DNA of 42,398 bases from a virus, in the IMG/VR virus record IMGVR_UViG_3300009156_000050, positions 1-42,398 of that record; one strand, given 5' to 3'. The notes under the pieces are model-generated. The model saw only the letters and a program-made list of their open reading frames with translations. It was not told the DNA's origin and ran no database searches. Below are positions 6,906 through 15,426 of this stretch, in pieces (position 1 is the first letter of the stretch; every line of letters begins with the position of its first letter). The translations under genes and the position numbers were made by a program.

Positions 6906-7685
6906 TTATGATCCAGAACTATCCAGCCCCATTACTTCTTCTTCGTAACTCCGATTGACACGTCCGATTTCGGCTTCGATCTCGAGTTTGTCGTTACGAA
7001 TGAACACGACGTCGATATCGTCCGTACCGTGTCCGAACTTCGTCAAGTTGACTAAACCGACAATATCATCGGGATTCTCGATGCGTCTATCGTCTTCGTC
7101 GGCCAGTACTCCGTCGATGCCGTAGAAAGTGAGTACCACTTGTCTGTAATCGGTCGCGTTCTCGCTGAACTCGTCTTGATGGATGACATATGGAGCTTCC
7201 CTACTCCGTCCTGCGAGCTCTCTGGGGAAATCCCAATTGTCGTTTTTGTCTTTCGGTCGAGGCCTAGGAAATTGACCGGTCGATCTTGTCGTGTTGTCGG
7301 TACGATCCGTATATACCGTAGGTTCTGTGACGGGCACCGGCGGCCTCAGAGGTCGTCCGGCTTCGGCAGTCGAATATCCCTTCTCTTCGACGATATCTTC
7401 GACTGACGGCTTGTCCTGCGCCTTGGCCGCGGCTACCTTCTGGTTGTAGGCTTCACGGATCTTCTCGATGTCCTTCTCGGCCTCGGCGTAGGCCTCAGCC
7501 CGAAGCTTCTCTCGCTGGTAGCGATATCCCCGCCAGAAACCGAATCCGAAACCGAAAGCGGTACCAGTGAGAAACCACCCGACTGCCGCTCCGTGAGAGA
7601 TCTGTCCCATCTCTCGGGTTGCGTTGGCCACATCCTCAATATGATTGGCCACCTGCCCGACTACGTTCGCCGTCGTCGATTCCAT
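6906..7685 (-). CDS. Membrane-anchored coiled-coil protein
   Basis: A 259-residue protein. A Gly/Phe-rich hydrophobic segment (about residues 33-53) is followed by a charged coiled-coil (about 55-95), a Pro/Thr-rich linker (about 110-150) and a conserved-looking C-terminal domain (Y-V-I-H-Q-D-E-F...V-V-L-T-F-Y-G-I-D-G-V-L-A-D-E-D). Its start overlaps the end of the DUF6353-like gene by 25 bases, with AAGGGG inside that gene. The pairing of such proteins with DUF6353 is familiar from other actinophages. The role is unknown. Confidence 0.7.
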   Translation of the reverse strand: MESTTANVVGQVANHIEDVANATREMGQISHGAAVGWFLTGTAFGFGFGFWRGYRYQREKLRAEAYAEAEKDIEKIREAYNQKVAAAKAQDKPSVEDIVEEKGYSTAEAGRPLRPPVPVTEPTVYTDRTDNTTRSTGQFPRPRPKDKNDNWDFPRELAGRSREAPYVIHQDEFSENATDYRQVVLTFYGIDGVLADEDDRRIENPDDIVGLVNLTKFGHGTDDIDVVFIRNDKLEIEAEIGRVNRSYEEEVMGLDSSGS

Positions 7686-8602
7686 GTCAATTTCCCCTTA
7701 TCTATTGTGTCGAGCTTATCCCAGATTACTCCATCGACATTGAAGTCGAGCAGAATGGACCCTTCTTTCAGATTGACGAAATCGTTAGCCTGCTCCGACC
7801 CATTCCAAATATCGAAGCTGATGTAATTGTCGGTCGATCCGTCGTCCGACCTGATCCAACCGACCACTTGACCGGCCTGAGATCTCTCCATCCCGAGCAG
7901 GTCGTAGACTTCGTTCAAGAACACGTGGCCATAGGCACTGAGTCGATCGTTCGCCCAGTTTTGTTGACCCATGAGAAATGCTCTGTTGTAGTCTGGATTT
8001 CGGTCCCAATTACGACATGTTTCGTCGAAGAAACGTGCATACACCGATGGCTCGAGATTTACTTGCTTGACTTTCTTCTTTCGGTTCGTTTCTGGATTGA
8101 CGATTTCCACTTCCTCGACGCCATATCGGAAATCTCGATCTTGCTCTTCGCCGTACTTCTCCACCACCGCGGCACGGTAACTCCTGAACCCCCGATCGAG
8201 AGCCGTATAGGCTGCAGTCAGAGCAGCATTGCGCGAGGTCAGAATATTATGAGAGCTCGTCAAAGCGGCGATCGAAAGTCCACCTACGATAACGGCCGGA
8301 GCGTATAGCTTAGCGATCTTGTAACCGGTTTGCCAATAAAGAACCTTGACGTCGTGATTAAGGTCGTCTTCCCTGTATCCCTCGTATTTTTCGTCGTCGT
8401 TCACCATCACGTCAAACAGTTCACGCTTGACTTTTGCTTCCTTTACGACCTCATCGGCCTTCAGAGTGGCTCGGCTAGCTAGAACAGCGCTTCCTACCAC
8501 GCCCACGATACCCGCAACGAAAAGGACCTGTGGTGAGGCCTTCTGTGCGAGTAAAGCATGATGGGCGATCTTCTGTCCGATCACCTGTGGAACGAGACTC
8601 AT
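7661..8602 (-). CDS. DUF6353-like membrane protein, copy A
   Basis: A 313-residue protein with two hydrophobic segments: V-L-F-V-A-G-I-V-G-V-V-G-S-A-V-L-A near residue 27 and Y-A-P-A-V-I-V-G-G-L-S-I-A-A-L near 100. The conserved block R-N-A-A-L-T-A-A-Y-x-A-L-D-R-G-F-R-S-Y-R and a C-terminal L-D-F-N-V-D-G-V-I-W-D-K follow. From memory this fits DUF6353, phage membrane proteins of unknown function. AAGGAG precedes the ATG. A shorter relative lies at 10718-11575, so the phage has two copies. Confidence 0.8.
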   Translation of the reverse strand: MSLVPQVIGQKIAHHALLAQKASPQVLFVAGIVGVVGSAVLASRATLKADEVVKEAKVKRELFDVMVNDDEKYEGYREDDLNHDVKVLYWQTGYKIAKLYAPAVIVGGLSIAALTSSHNILTSRNAALTAAYTALDRGFRSYRAAVVEKYGEEQDRDFRYGVEEVEIVNPETNRKKKVKQVNLEPSVYARFFDETCRNWDRNPDYNRAFLMGQQNWANDRLSAYGHVFLNEVYDLLGMERSQAGQVVGWIRSDDGSTDNYISFDIWNGSEQANDFVNLKEGSILLDFNVDGVIWDKLDTIDKGKLTWNRRRRT

Positions 8603-10548: not shown

Positions 10549-10800
10549 CTATGGTAATTCTCCTCTTGGATCTTGCAGCTTGATCGATATCACTTCTCTG
10601 ATGCCGTCGATGTACTCGTAGACCTCGATCGGCTCCATTCCGAGTTCTTGAAGGAGATTTATCGCCGCCTCAATTTCGTACTTGACCTCGGCGACGGCAC
10701 TCGTTGTGCAAGCCCCTTCAATCGGCCAGAAATTTCGAGTGATAATTCGAATATGGATGATGGGCGAAGTCGATTGCCATGCACGGTCTCTGATCCGGAG
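10549..10800 (-). other. Reading frame without a start; possible +1 frameshift extension
   Basis: The minus-strand frame is open for 83 codons from 10800 to a TAG at 10549, but has no early ATG, GTG or TTG. The part after the upstream stop reads E-G-A-C-T-T-S-A-V-A-E-V-K-Y-E-I-E then E-L-G-M-E-P-I-E-V-Y-E-Y-I-D-G-I-R-E, which looks like genuine protein. The 10718-11575 gene ends G-A-T-T-G-A; slipping forward one base there (+1) would continue into this frame. Alternatives are an ATT start, a short product from the internal ATG (29 residues), or a sequence error. Confidence 0.4.
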
Positions 10801-11575
10801 TCATCGTTGCGGAGATCTTGACCTCGACTCGATCGTTCGCATTCCAGCCGACATGATCCGAATATGACGTCGGAGGCAAGCCGAGCTCGTCATAGAACTC
10901 GCTCAAGCTGACATGCATGAAGTTGAGCAACTCGTGATTGACCTTGTTCTCGGCTCGTTTGATCTCCTCGACCGTGCTCTGGAAATATCGCCCACTGTGC
11001 AGATCGAAGCAGAGAACTTCACCGGCTCCGGCGATGATGACTTCTCGATTGTTCGGAGGATGCTTGGTCACTCTCTCCTGAGCGATATCGTCTCTGACCT
11101 TCTGCTCTTCCCGTTCACCGATCCTGTCGAACACCTTCCGCTTGTACTCCTGCAGAGATCTCTCCGAGATTGCCGAAGCGACCGTAAGGGCGGCGATCTT
11201 CGACGATGTGATCCTGTGCGCCATGACGATGCAGGTGATCGTGACGGCACAAGTGGTCGCCGGTGGAATATACGCCTTCCAAACCAGCTTGGCCTTCCTG
11301 GTCCTTGTCAGCTTCTCGTCGAATGGAGCCTTGACATCATCTTCGGTCAGTTTTTCGTCCGAAGTCGCCCATTGCTTTGCAACTTCTTCCGCCTTCTTCG
11401 CCGCCATCTTTCGCTCTTCTTCGGCGATCATGTCTGCAGCTCTGAATGTGGCTCGTCCTGTCAAGACCGCGGTTGCAACGGTTCCGACCACCGCGATACT
11501 CGACAAAATGGTAGGAGAATTCTCATTCAGGAGGAACTTTGCTTGCTGAGCTTTTTGAGCCAACCCAAGAATCAT
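10718..11575 (-). CDS. DUF6353-like membrane protein, copy B
   Basis: A 285-residue protein laid out like the copy at 7661-8602: an N-terminal hydrophobic segment (S-S-I-A-V-V-G-T-V-A-T-A-V-L-T-G-R-A-T-F), a second near residue 105 (A-T-T-C-A-V-T-I-T-C-I-V-M-A), a serially similar I-A-A-L-T-V-A-S-A-I-S-E-R-S-L-Q-E-Y block, and V-N-H-E-L-L-N-F-M-H-V-S-L-S-E-F-Y-D-E-L-G-L before the final domain with V-G-W. Inferred paralogue; role unknown. GAGAGG precedes the ATG. It follows the 48-residue membrane peptide gene, and both are read from promoter copy 2. Confidence 0.7.
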   Translation of the reverse strand: MILGLAQKAQQAKFLLNENSPTILSSIAVVGTVATAVLTGRATFRAADMIAEEERKMAAKKAEEVAKQWATSDEKLTEDDVKAPFDEKLTRTRKAKLVWKAYIPPATTCAVTITCIVMAHRITSSKIAALTVASAISERSLQEYKRKVFDRIGEREEQKVRDDIAQERVTKHPPNNREVIIAGAGEVLCFDLHSGRYFQSTVEEIKRAENKVNHELLNFMHVSLSEFYDELGLPPTSYSDHVGWNANDRVEVKISATMTPDQRPCMAIDFAHHPYSNYHSKFLAD

Positions 11576-11732: not shown

Positions 11733-11809
11733 AAAAAATAAAACGATAAGGGCGCCGCCCCCGATCATCTGCCAGGGGCGGATAGCTCCCAAGACGGGAG
11801 CTTCACCTC
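11733..11809 (-). ncRNA. Two-hairpin leader with U-rich end
   Basis: Downstream of promoter copy 2 the minus strand forms two strong hairpins: AGCTCCC/GGGAGCT (11784-11802, loop of 5) and CCGCCCC/GGGGGCGG (11755-11781). A T-rich run at 11733-11744 follows, and then the AGGAGG of the next gene. The second hairpin plus U-run looks like an intrinsic terminator inside a 5' leader, so transcription into the 48-residue and DUF6353-like genes may be attenuated. It could instead simply end read-through from upstream. Confidence 0.6.
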
Positions 11810-11834
11810 ACTAAAGGCCAAGTTATCGCTGCGA
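11810..11834 (-). promoter_or_regulatory. 25-bp promoter element, copy 2
   Basis: TCGCAG, 13 bases with C at position 7, TTTAGT. The upstream hexamer starts directly after the TAA of the 11835-11942 gene. Confidence 0.65.
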
Positions 11835-11942
11835 TTACTCCTCTCCTTGCCGACAGTCCGGATCGTTTGGATCACATGCCGGATATACAGCCTCGTCTTC
11901 GACTTCCACTTCTTCCGTCTCGACCGTATCCGGTTCGTCCAT
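11835..11942 (-). CDS. 35-residue acidic Cys-containing peptide
   Basis: A peptide starting M-D-E-P-D-T-V-E-T-E-E, highly acidic, with C-D-P-N-D-P-D-C near the end, a possible metal-binding or disulfide pair. AGGAGG precedes the ATG at 11942. An upstream in-frame ATG would read through the promoter and structured RNA, so it is rejected. The gene is the only one read from promoter copy 3. Role unknown; an acidic DNA-mimic is possible but speculative. Confidence 0.6.
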   Translation of the reverse strand: MDEPDTVETEEVEVEDEAVYPACDPNDPDCRQGEE

Positions 11943-11962
11943 AGCGACCTCCTTTTGGAGAG

Positions 11963-12033
11963 AAAAAAAAGAGAGAGCCTGAAGGGTGCCGATGTCCTTC
12001 ATTGCAATGTCCTTAAGGCTGGACAACTCTCTC
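11963..12033 (-). ncRNA. 71-nt structured RNA element, copy A
   Basis: It begins GAGAGAG directly after the TATAAT-like hexamer of promoter copy 3 and ends CTCTCTC plus eight Ts. Inside are a stem TGTCC/GGACA closing the loop AGCCTTAA, a palindrome ATTGCAAT, and a stem TGAAGG/CCTTCA closing a loop with CATCGGCAC. A near twin lies at 12575-12645 with matching base changes in both stems. The AGCCT of the loop can also pair with AGGCT just before the closing arm, an alternative terminator fold. Likely an attenuator, riboswitch-like leader or processed small RNA. Confidence 0.7.
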
Positions 12034-12058
12034 ATAAGAGGGCATGTATTCTCTGCGA
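12034..12058 (-). promoter_or_regulatory. 25-bp promoter element, copy 3
   Basis: TCGCAG, 13 bases with C at position 7, TCTTAT. It starts immediately after the TAA of the 12059-12277 gene and drives RNA copy A. Confidence 0.65.
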
Positions 12059-12277
12059 TTAGGCGGCCTTCACCGTCGTTGCGTCTTCTTGGGGGAAAAG
12101 TCGCATCGCCTCAACGGCTCGAACCACGTTGGTCGCTTCTTCTTCGTCACGGAGACGATAGCCCACACAACGATGTCCATACCAGACGTACCAGAGATCG
12201 GGAGTACGTGTATGTCGAACCCAAATATACACTCCCTGTTCACGAAGCTCGCGGCACCATTTGTGTAGTTCGCTCAT
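12059..12277 (-). CDS. Small hypothetical protein
   Basis: A 72-residue protein starting M-S-E-L-H-K-W-C-R-E-L-R-E-Q-G-V-Y-I-W-V-R-H and including L-W-Y-V-W-Y-G-H-R-C-V-G-Y-R-L. The start at 12277 has GAGG 8 bases upstream; an alternative ATG at 12286 would overlap the upstream stop. It is the second gene of the unit read from promoter copy 4. No family recognised. Confidence 0.65.
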   Translation of the reverse strand: MSELHKWCRELREQGVYIWVRHTRTPDLWYVWYGHRCVGYRLRDEEEATNVVRAVEAMRLFPQEDATTVKAA

Positions 12278-12278
12278 A

Positions 12279-12554
12279 TCACTCATCCTCGAAATCGTGG
12301 GTCTTCTGATGGAATATCCCGCAGGGAACGAAACCCTTCTCATCGTCGATCCGAACGAAGCCGCGACGCATGACACTGGTCTGATAGCCGTCCTTGAAGT
12401 AGAACGTCTTCCCGTCTTGCATCGCAGACTCGAGTGAGAAACGAACGATGCAGCAGATGGGATAACCAAATCTTCGCCCTTTACGCCAATGGAACAGGAA
12501 CTGGTTGATCTTGCCCATGCGTGGAATGGTCATTGAAATATAGCCGTGATCCAT
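12279..12554 (-). CDS. Small Cys-Cys hypothetical protein
   Basis: A 91-residue protein with F-H-W-R-K-G-R-R-F-G-Y-P-I-C-C-I-V-R-F-S near residues 21-40 and V-P-C-G-I-F-H near 76. The pattern of a basic stretch followed by P-x-C-C-I is familiar from actinophage hypotheticals. AAAGGG precedes the ATG at 12554; a longer frame would run through the structured RNA and is rejected. It is the first gene behind RNA copy B. Confidence 0.7.
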   Translation of the reverse strand: MDHGYISMTIPRMGKINQFLFHWRKGRRFGYPICCIVRFSLESAMQDGKTFYFKDGYQTSVMRRGFVRIDDEKGFVPCGIFHQKTHDFEDE

Positions 12555-12574
12555 ACAGCCCTTTCTGAGAAAAG

Positions 12575-12645
12575 AAAAAAAGAGAGAGCCTGAGGGCGTG
12601 CCGATGACCCTCATCGCGATATCGTTAAGGCTCGATGACTCTCTC
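12575..12645 (-). ncRNA. 71-nt structured RNA element, copy B
   Basis: Same layout as copy A: GAGAGAG directly after promoter copy 4, then ATCG/CGAT closing the identical loop AGCCTTAA, palindrome ATCGCGAT, TGAGGG/CCCTCA closing a loop with CATCGGCAC, and CTCTCTC followed by seven Ts. Compared with copy A, paired positions change together (G-C to A-U, C-G to G-C, A-U to G-C), while loops are conserved, which supports an RNA structure under selection. Confidence 0.7.
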
Positions 12646-12670
12646 ATAATAGGGTAGGTAATTTCTGCGA
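12646..12670 (-). promoter_or_regulatory. 25-bp promoter element, copy 4
   Basis: TCGCAG, 13 bases with C at position 7, TATTAT. It drives RNA copy B and the genes at 12279-12554 and 12059-12277. Confidence 0.75.
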
Positions 12671-12675
12671 AAATG

Positions 12676-12731
12676 AAAAAAAGTGAAGAGCGGGGCCCTC
12701 ACAACCCCCTATCGGACGGATGACGCTCTTC
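12676..12731 (-). ncRNA. Candidate stand-alone small RNA (about 56 nt)
   Basis: It begins GAAGAGCG directly after promoter copy 5 and closes with CGCTCTTC, then AC and seven Ts. The next promoter (copy 4) starts only 5 bases later. There is no ribosome site and no gene between, so promoter plus terminator appear to make a short RNA. A frame starting at the ATG that overlaps the -10-like hexamer lacks a ribosome site and would run through the terminator and next promoter. Confidence 0.65.
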
Positions 12732-12756
12732 ATTAAAGGGTAGGGAATTTCTGCGA
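12732..12756 (-). promoter_or_regulatory. 25-bp promoter element, copy 5
   Basis: TCGCAG, 13 bases with C at position 7, TTTAAT. It sits 5 bases after the stop of the 12762-13214 gene. Confidence 0.7.
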
Positions 12757-12761
12757 TTCGT

Positions 12762-13214
12762 CTATATCTCCTCGAAGATTCTGAAGTCTCCCTTAGGACG
12801 ACGAAAGATCTTCCCCTTGGCATCCGGAAGTTTTCCGTACAGATGAGCTGATAAATCGGTGTCTGAGATGCCATGAGCTCGAGCTGCTTGTTGTTGATTG
12901 AAATATCCCACGTTATCGCTCGGCTTTTTTCTGCCAAAATATCCACCCACGTAACTACCATCATCCACGACTATGACGGGATTCCCACGTCTGAAATCTT
13001 TGGGAACCGAAACTTCTCTGAGATTGCTGGGTGGACCAGTAAAGACGACAGTGGGCGCAGCAGGTGTGTTGAACGTAACGTATCGTTTCGTCACAACACA
13101 TCCGACGACGAAGGCTCCGGTAATAGCGATACCGGTGTAGATGCCCTGATTTCGTTTTACATGTGTTTTGGTCTTGCCGTATATCACTTTGATGTTTTCT
13201 CTACCGAATTTCAT
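12762..13214 (-). CDS. Membrane protein with DNA-binding-like C-terminus
   Basis: A 150-residue protein. Basic N-terminus, one membrane segment (about residues 24-42: Y-T-G-I-A-I-T-G-A-F-V-V-G-C-V-V), a linker, and a C-terminal region N-Q-Q-Q-A-A-R-A-H-G-I-S-D-T-D-L-S-A-H-L-Y-G, resembling the helix-turn-helix modules (NUMOD-like) that phages place at protein ends. The start at 13214 has AGGAG 8 bases upstream; longer frames have no ribosome site. It would combine membrane anchoring with nucleic acid recognition, a tentative reading. Confidence 0.65.
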   Translation of the reverse strand: MKFGRENIKVIYGKTKTHVKRNQGIYTGIAITGAFVVGCVVTKRYVTFNTPAAPTVVFTGPPSNLREVSVPKDFRRGNPVIVVDDGSYVGGYFGRKKPSDNVGYFNQQQAARAHGISDTDLSAHLYGKLPDAKGKIFRRPKGDFRIFEEI

Positions 13215-15365: not shown

Positions 15366-15426
15366 AAAAAATATAAAGAGACGGCTCACGCTTTTACAGC
15401 CGGTGAGTTACTTCCTGTCTCTTTCT
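15366..15426 (-). ncRNA. Structured leader RNA with terminator-like end
   Basis: Starting 2 bases after promoter copy 7, AAAGAGAC pairs with GTCTCTTT before a T-rich run. Inside, CTCAC can pair with GTGAG, or CGGCT with AGCCG; the two inner pairings exclude each other. An intrinsic terminator for the gene upstream already stands at 15457-15484, so this second terminator-like element behind the promoter is not needed for upstream termination. It could attenuate the nine-gene operon that follows. Confidence 0.6.

Follow-up and report, generated by a model that had tools for sequence, protein, structure and literature searches.

A promoter-terminator unit as a candidate small-RNA gene in an actinobacteriophage-like genome fragment

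Introduction

The intrinsically terminated trans-acting small RNAs of bacteria are short and intergenic, and run from a promoter to a rho-independent terminator. A different type of structured RNA is the put RNA of phage HK022, which has about 70 nt, lies right after an early phage promoter, lacks a U-run and suppresses termination. In the mycobacteriophages L5, D29 and StarStuff, the early promoter Pleft drives an abundant non-coding RNA from a region of about 500 bp with no evident stem-loop terminator (PMC5712189). Precedent for two-barrel phage polymerases with their own motifs is provided by gp64 and gp96 of P23-45 (PMC10770324), and a start site of the YonO polymerase of SPbeta lies upstream of an unannotated non-coding RNA (PMC5467207).

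Here we describe a unit, named U2, at positions 12756-12676 (minus strand) of a 42,398-base IMG/VR record. This whole stretch, referred to as the window, is a fragment of an actinobacteriophage-like siphovirus with its genes on the minus strand. The predicted U2 RNA resembles the bacterial trans-acting RNAs in being short and intergenic and in running from a promoter to a rho-independent terminator, but its 5' end forms the terminator stem, there is no single-stranded 5' seed, and no target was found. As in the put RNA and antitermination leaders, a structured RNA would follow a phage promoter immediately; in contrast to put, gene-less units of this kind end in a U-run, and U2 has no gene before the next promoter. 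U2 shares with the L5, D29 and StarStuff locus an actinophage promoter leading into a non-coding RNA without a useful ORF, as far as the sequence of U2 tells, whereas its RNA would be about 56 nt long, closed by its own terminator and transcribed from a repeated 30-bp motif. The candidate polymerase, phrog_4291, is like those of P23-45 and SPbeta phage-encoded, with a DxDxD motif, a two-barrel fold and, as a candidate, a repeated phage-specific promoter motif, and differs from them in its family and its HTH-like ends.

Promoter motif and anatomy of U2

The window encodes a DNA primase/polymerase (phrog_4210), two DUF6353 proteins, a terminase and a tape-measure protein with relatives in Streptomyces and Arthrobacter, and many small genes are located at 9.9-19.8 kb. 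Within this region, a position weight matrix scan identified 21 copies of a 30-bp motif, approximately TCGCAGAAATTACatgtccTATAATGAAAC, all on the minus strand. The copies score 28-46 bits, other sites on either strand of the window stay at or below 5-10 bits, and shuffled sequence gave no match at the scores of the 21 copies. The majority are situated directly behind the terminator of a gene and ahead of a ribosome site. Sixteen of the 21 copies lead into genes, and the other five lead straight into hairpin-terminators (units U1-U5). A scan for the TTGACA-17-TATAAT consensus misses the motif site of U2, which by this measure is not a sigma-70 promoter.

Outside the window, an exact motif scan returned 68 stretches from IMG/VR viral contigs versus a single match in 257 Gb of bacterial and archaeal genomes, which argues that the motif is phage-specific. 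This single match (L088 6768-6796) lies on a 95-kb contig of a Lachnospiraceae MAG, possibly a phage contig. Named phages of Gordonia, Rhodococcus, Arthrobacter, Streptomyces, Curtobacterium and Microbacterium carry the motif, as do many metagenomic phages. The early promoters of the phiC31 type were considered and rejected, as phiC31 has neither the motif nor a phrog_4291 polymerase. A literature search, with most subscription journals outside its reach, returned no paper on the motif or its RNAs.

The promoter motif of U2, TCGCAGAAATTCCCTACCCTTTAATGAAGA (12727..12756, minus strand; 35.6 bits), is the fifth copy from the left, and G12731 is the first base after its TTTAAT. From this base, a non-coding RNA of 56 nt that contains no ORF with a ribosome site is predicted to extend to the end of the unit (12676..12731). 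The 5' arm of its closing stem, GAAGAGCG (12724..12731), starts with the first base after the TATAAT-like box and pairs with the 3' arm CGCTCTTC (12685..12692), followed by AC, the T7 tract of the terminator (12676..12682), CATTT and the TCGCAG that opens the next promoter copy at 12670 (12641..12670; 42.0 bits). The pairing of the two ends is perfect over 8 bp and has a probability of 0.0009 by shuffling. Going downstream, the first start codon that has a ribosome site is reached after 177 nt, past unit U3, and the gene downstream of both units (12279..12554) has its own ribosome site and a DUF483-like match below the cut-off. The anatomy thus agrees with the original prediction, which placed a hairpin with seven Ts right after promoter copy 5 and the next promoter 5 bases later, saw no ribosome site or useful frame between them, and estimated a product of about 50-56 nt; the size stands as a prediction.

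The upstream gene (12762..13214, minus strand, 150 aa) has its stop codon 5 bp ahead of the U2 promoter, and no terminator is found between the two, so the U2 hairpin probably ends the transcript of this gene as well. A second hairpin of U2, GTGAGG...CTCTTCAC (GTGAGGGCCCCGCTCTTCAC, 12683..12702), overlaps the closing stem and directly abuts the T-run, so that both overlapping hairpins finish near the T-run; this alternative hairpin could terminate the transcript of the upstream gene whatever its 5' end. At U2, U4 and U5 (within 11834-12762, minus strand), a gene-promoter-terminator arrangement replaces the usual gene-terminator-promoter one, and the upstream stop codon abuts the promoter.

The U2 RNA has no relative among the sequences searched. 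The conservation search proposed with the original prediction returned no homologue in phages or IMG/VR by blastn, by exact pattern or via the neighbouring genes. The proposed target prediction likewise gave nothing above chance in the phage, either at start codons or by the longest complementary stretch. Its fold is no better than that of dinucleotide shuffles (z -0.26 for a 54-nt piece). Rfam gives no match at U2 when E values up to 1 are allowed, and nothing above the gathering threshold in the window, where weak matches with E < 1 occur near 17.7, 18.8 and 19.0 kb. The promoters of U2 and U3 are the most alike pair (24/30); the idea that U2 is a diverged copy of U3 was rejected, as the similarity of the inner parts is not significant (z 1.2).

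Gene-less units in the window and in other phages

The four sibling units lie on the same strand. U1 (15366..15426, promoter 15451-15422) has an inner hairpin that is kept in the related locus L004 with a different outer stem sequence, and U5 (11733..11809, promoter 11834-11805) lies upstream of a gene conserved in L004. U3 (12575..12645, promoter 12670-12641) is predicted to encode a 71-nt RNA with a three-way junction and a terminator, and U4 (11963..12033, promoter 12058-12029) is its paralogue, 81% identical over the repeat. The two differ at about 11 positions with compensatory changes, 19/19 pairs being kept and 3 pairs changed on both sides, a comparison of two sequences with a weak shuffle control (69/500). 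Of the nine differences ahead of the indel, six hit third codon positions in an open frame, and a coding constraint on U3 and U4 may therefore be at work as well. This frame starts in both units at an ATG overlapping the TATAAT box and stays open in phase across the terminator and on into the next gene (12279-12647 and 11835-12035, minus strand). U1, U3, U4 and U5 all have the terminator between a promoter and a following gene, which is not the case in U2, where another promoter follows.

To describe the class across phages, a motif copy was called gene-type if a ribosome site and an ORF lay within 60 nt of the motif. Among 441 distinct copies, 336 were gene-type and 105 gene-less (about a quarter, a share that is biased upward in this motif-selected set, since phages selected by their polymerase had only 9 gene-less copies out of 75, 5 of them with a closing stem). 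In 76 of the 105 gene-less copies the first bases of the RNA pair with the bases before the T-run, compared with 42.9 +/- 3.3 when the 5' ends were exchanged between units. Stems at the strength of U2 are found in 34/105 gene-less copies versus 3.6 after the exchange and 2/336 gene-type copies. In 67 of the 76 units the first paired base of the stem lies between -3 and +2 relative to the G behind TATAAT, which suggests that transcription starts there and not 6-8 nt downstream as for sigma-70; with a start of the latter kind, stems beginning at these positions would be lost. Behind the closing stem, 36 of the 76 units precede a gene with a ribosome site, and 29 precede another promoter and therefore stand alone, as U2 does. 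No excess of micro-ORFs was detected in 64 units (48 complete ones, 44.5 expected from shuffles).

RNA families behind the motif

Three of the RNAs that follow the motif are tRNAs, namely the annotated tRNA-Ala of ReqiPepy6 and tRNAs in L007 and L014, and tRNAs are all that Rfam finds in the related loci. The tRNA of L007 (3837-3909) comes directly after the motif and is called with a two-base anticodon (at). RNAs of tRNA-like shape with a shortened anticodon loop also follow the motif at L081 11199, L085 8610, L028 4193 and L048 6205, and are recognised by neither ARAGORN nor Rfam.

Covariation is seen in a twin-loop family of six aligned sequences with two hairpins, in which 96% of the cells are paired and 6 pairs are changed on both sides (0/500 shuffles). 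A promoter follows this RNA in four phages and different genes follow it in two, which means that conservation of the RNA does not extend to its downstream neighbour. Twin-loop RNAs were located at L081 17945, L085 14682, L020 977, L036 2904, L063 7171, L056 1167 and L031 920; two or three hairpins within one RNA share a loop sequence, and the loop varies between phages. Another family has a conserved GACACGAAUG core that is often joined by a T-arm-like stem; it was seen in phages of Gordonia, Rhodococcus and Arthrobacter and in metagenomic ones (L020 1326, L052 6577, L027 4828, L040 3391, L075 9242, L077 11297, L079 13570, L064 869, L086 10451 and L211 4622) and has no Rfam match. Because it aligns poorly (47% identity), its covariation was left uncounted.

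Candidate polymerase

The relatives that bear the motif encode a phrog_4291 protein of about 900 residues with the sequence ADFDGD (for example L077 43544-46255, L081 35184-37877 and L107 501-3143). Its structure was predicted from 23 homologues with a mean pLDDT of 77, and the predicted fold matches QDE-1, plant RDR2, P74 gp62 and P23-45 gp64 over residues 224-720 (Z 12-16). On this model, phrog_4291 is a two-barrel protein with the DxDxD motif. A profile search against the sequences of solved structures matched HTH-like repeats only, and it was the fold search that succeeded. The family carries the label 'RNA-dependent RNA polymerase'; its members are RNA polymerases of the two-barrel type, flanked at each end by HTH-like segments, and IMG/VR contains more than 500 relatives.

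Of 21 virus records selected by the motif, 17 contain the polymerase and the other four are apparently fragments; conversely, the motif is found in all 16 polymerase-selected records, with no match of the reversed pattern. The window fragment itself has no polymerase gene. From this co-occurrence it is likely that the phrog_4291 polymerase recognises the 30-bp motif; the two may also co-occur by shared descent only. The T7-type polymerase PF00940 had no match in 15 records, but the control was equally silent. We found neither biochemistry nor a described promoter for the phrog_4291 family.

Discussion

U2 combines a putative promoter of its own, its own terminator and the lack of a translated frame, as a stand-alone small-RNA gene should. 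We consider that positions 12731-12676 are probably such a free-standing gene, read by the two-barrel polymerase of the phage, whose RNA acts in trans and whose hairpin also terminates the upstream transcript. The candidate small RNA of the original prediction is upheld in part, as the best reading, by the class of gene-less units, the covariation of sibling RNAs and the three tRNAs; the U2 RNA itself is without a homologue, so its case rests on class membership.

The phage's own two-barrel RNA polymerase would be the most likely reader of the phage-specific promoter, and transcription would begin at G12731 or no more than about 3 nt from it. The first 8-9 nt of the nascent RNA would then pair with CGCUCUUCA just before the U-run, and this stem would stop transcription and release a sealed hairpin RNA of 50-56 nt, while the same hairpin would end the transcript of gene 13214-12762. 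Early in infection, this structured RNA would work in trans, for example by occupying an RNA-binding factor of the host or phage, and not by opening or closing a downstream gene. We favour such a trans-acting structured RNA on the grounds that U2 is free-standing, that its ends are sealed, and that neither a cis target nor an antisense match was seen. The gene neighbourhood, together with the non-coding RNAs that other actinophages make early, leads us to infer early expression.

The main rival makes U2 an attenuated or tandem-promoter leader of downstream genes: the hairpin would serve solely to terminate gene 13214-12762, and the promoter would be a weak extra one whose transcripts leak past the U2 and U3 terminators into genes 12554-12062. 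It draws on the missing terminator of the upstream gene, on hairpin 12702-12683, which would terminate the upstream transcript without any promoter, on the genes after U1, U3, U4 and U5, which have no other motif copy, and on the 36 units across phages that precede a gene with a ribosome site. The hairpin was named at the outset as possibly serving this gene only, and that objection is half sound; 'only', however, leaves a full-strength promoter between gene and hairpin unexplained. The closing stem moreover begins at the start of the RNA, which a plain terminator of an upstream gene does not need, and no alternative antiterminator pairing was identified. Since 29 units including U2 run into another promoter and the twin-loop RNA is kept while its downstream neighbour changes, we regard the leader as unlikely, though it deserves to be taken seriously. 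A relic, left when a small gene was deleted and its promoter fused to a terminator, would yield a meaningless RNA, and fits the neighbouring promoter-gene-terminator cassettes, which turn over fast, as well as the absence of a homologue and of excess fold stability in U2. Such a deletion, however, would leave a leader like AAACC..AAAGGAG and a complete terminator, whereas in U2 the 5' arm of the terminator is formed by the first transcribed bases, and units of this kind are found again in many phages, where their stems are strong and several families show covariation. The relic is accordingly improbable in our view.

The two remaining explanations have very little probability. Leaderless translation is common in Actinobacteria, and a micro-peptide could in principle be read from the ATG overlapping the TATAAT box, in the frame MKSVIRPIGGCEGPALHFFSF..., which is open through U2 just as the frames of U3 and U4 are open and in phase with the next gene. 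The U2 frame nevertheless reaches the terminator without a stop codon, a ribosome site is absent, and complete micro-ORFs are about as frequent in shuffles, all of which makes such a peptide hardly credible. Equally far-fetched is a motif that serves as a binding site, for instance of a repressor or in replication, with nothing transcribed from it. A helix-turn-helix (HTH) protein is encoded at 2076-2492, the motif lacks a sigma-70 match, and its start site is a predicted one; yet all copies share a single orientation, 16/21 have a ribosome site and start codon a short way downstream, many are directly behind a terminator, and the motif precedes tRNA genes in other phages.

The free-standing small-RNA gene that we prefer for U2 also allows a broader and more tentative proposal. 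If the purine-rich start fixed by the promoter doubles as the terminator's 5' arm, whatever is inserted between the two arms would become a stable closed RNA cassette. Phages with phrog_4291 might, on a view that we hold with considerable doubt, carry a large and fast-changing repertoire of such sealed small RNAs as a counterpart of the small early proteins of host takeover. It would comprise T-loop-like RNAs, twin-loop RNAs with two identical loops, tRNAs and short hairpins like U2. Should the class prove real, a phage lineage that infects six or more actinobacterial genera spends a sizeable share of its early promoters on non-coding RNAs that are missing from annotation, and a two-barrel RNA polymerase family for which we found no described promoter gains a candidate one. 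The isolates Pherobrine and Rickmore (Gordonia phages), ReqiPepy6 (Rhodococcus phage) and CapnMurica (Arthrobacter phage) make the class directly testable.

As a minor observation on the gene content of the window phage, its two DUF6353 proteins (phrog_2152) are encoded at 7661-8602 and 10718-11575 on the minus strand, and FP_oengus has three.
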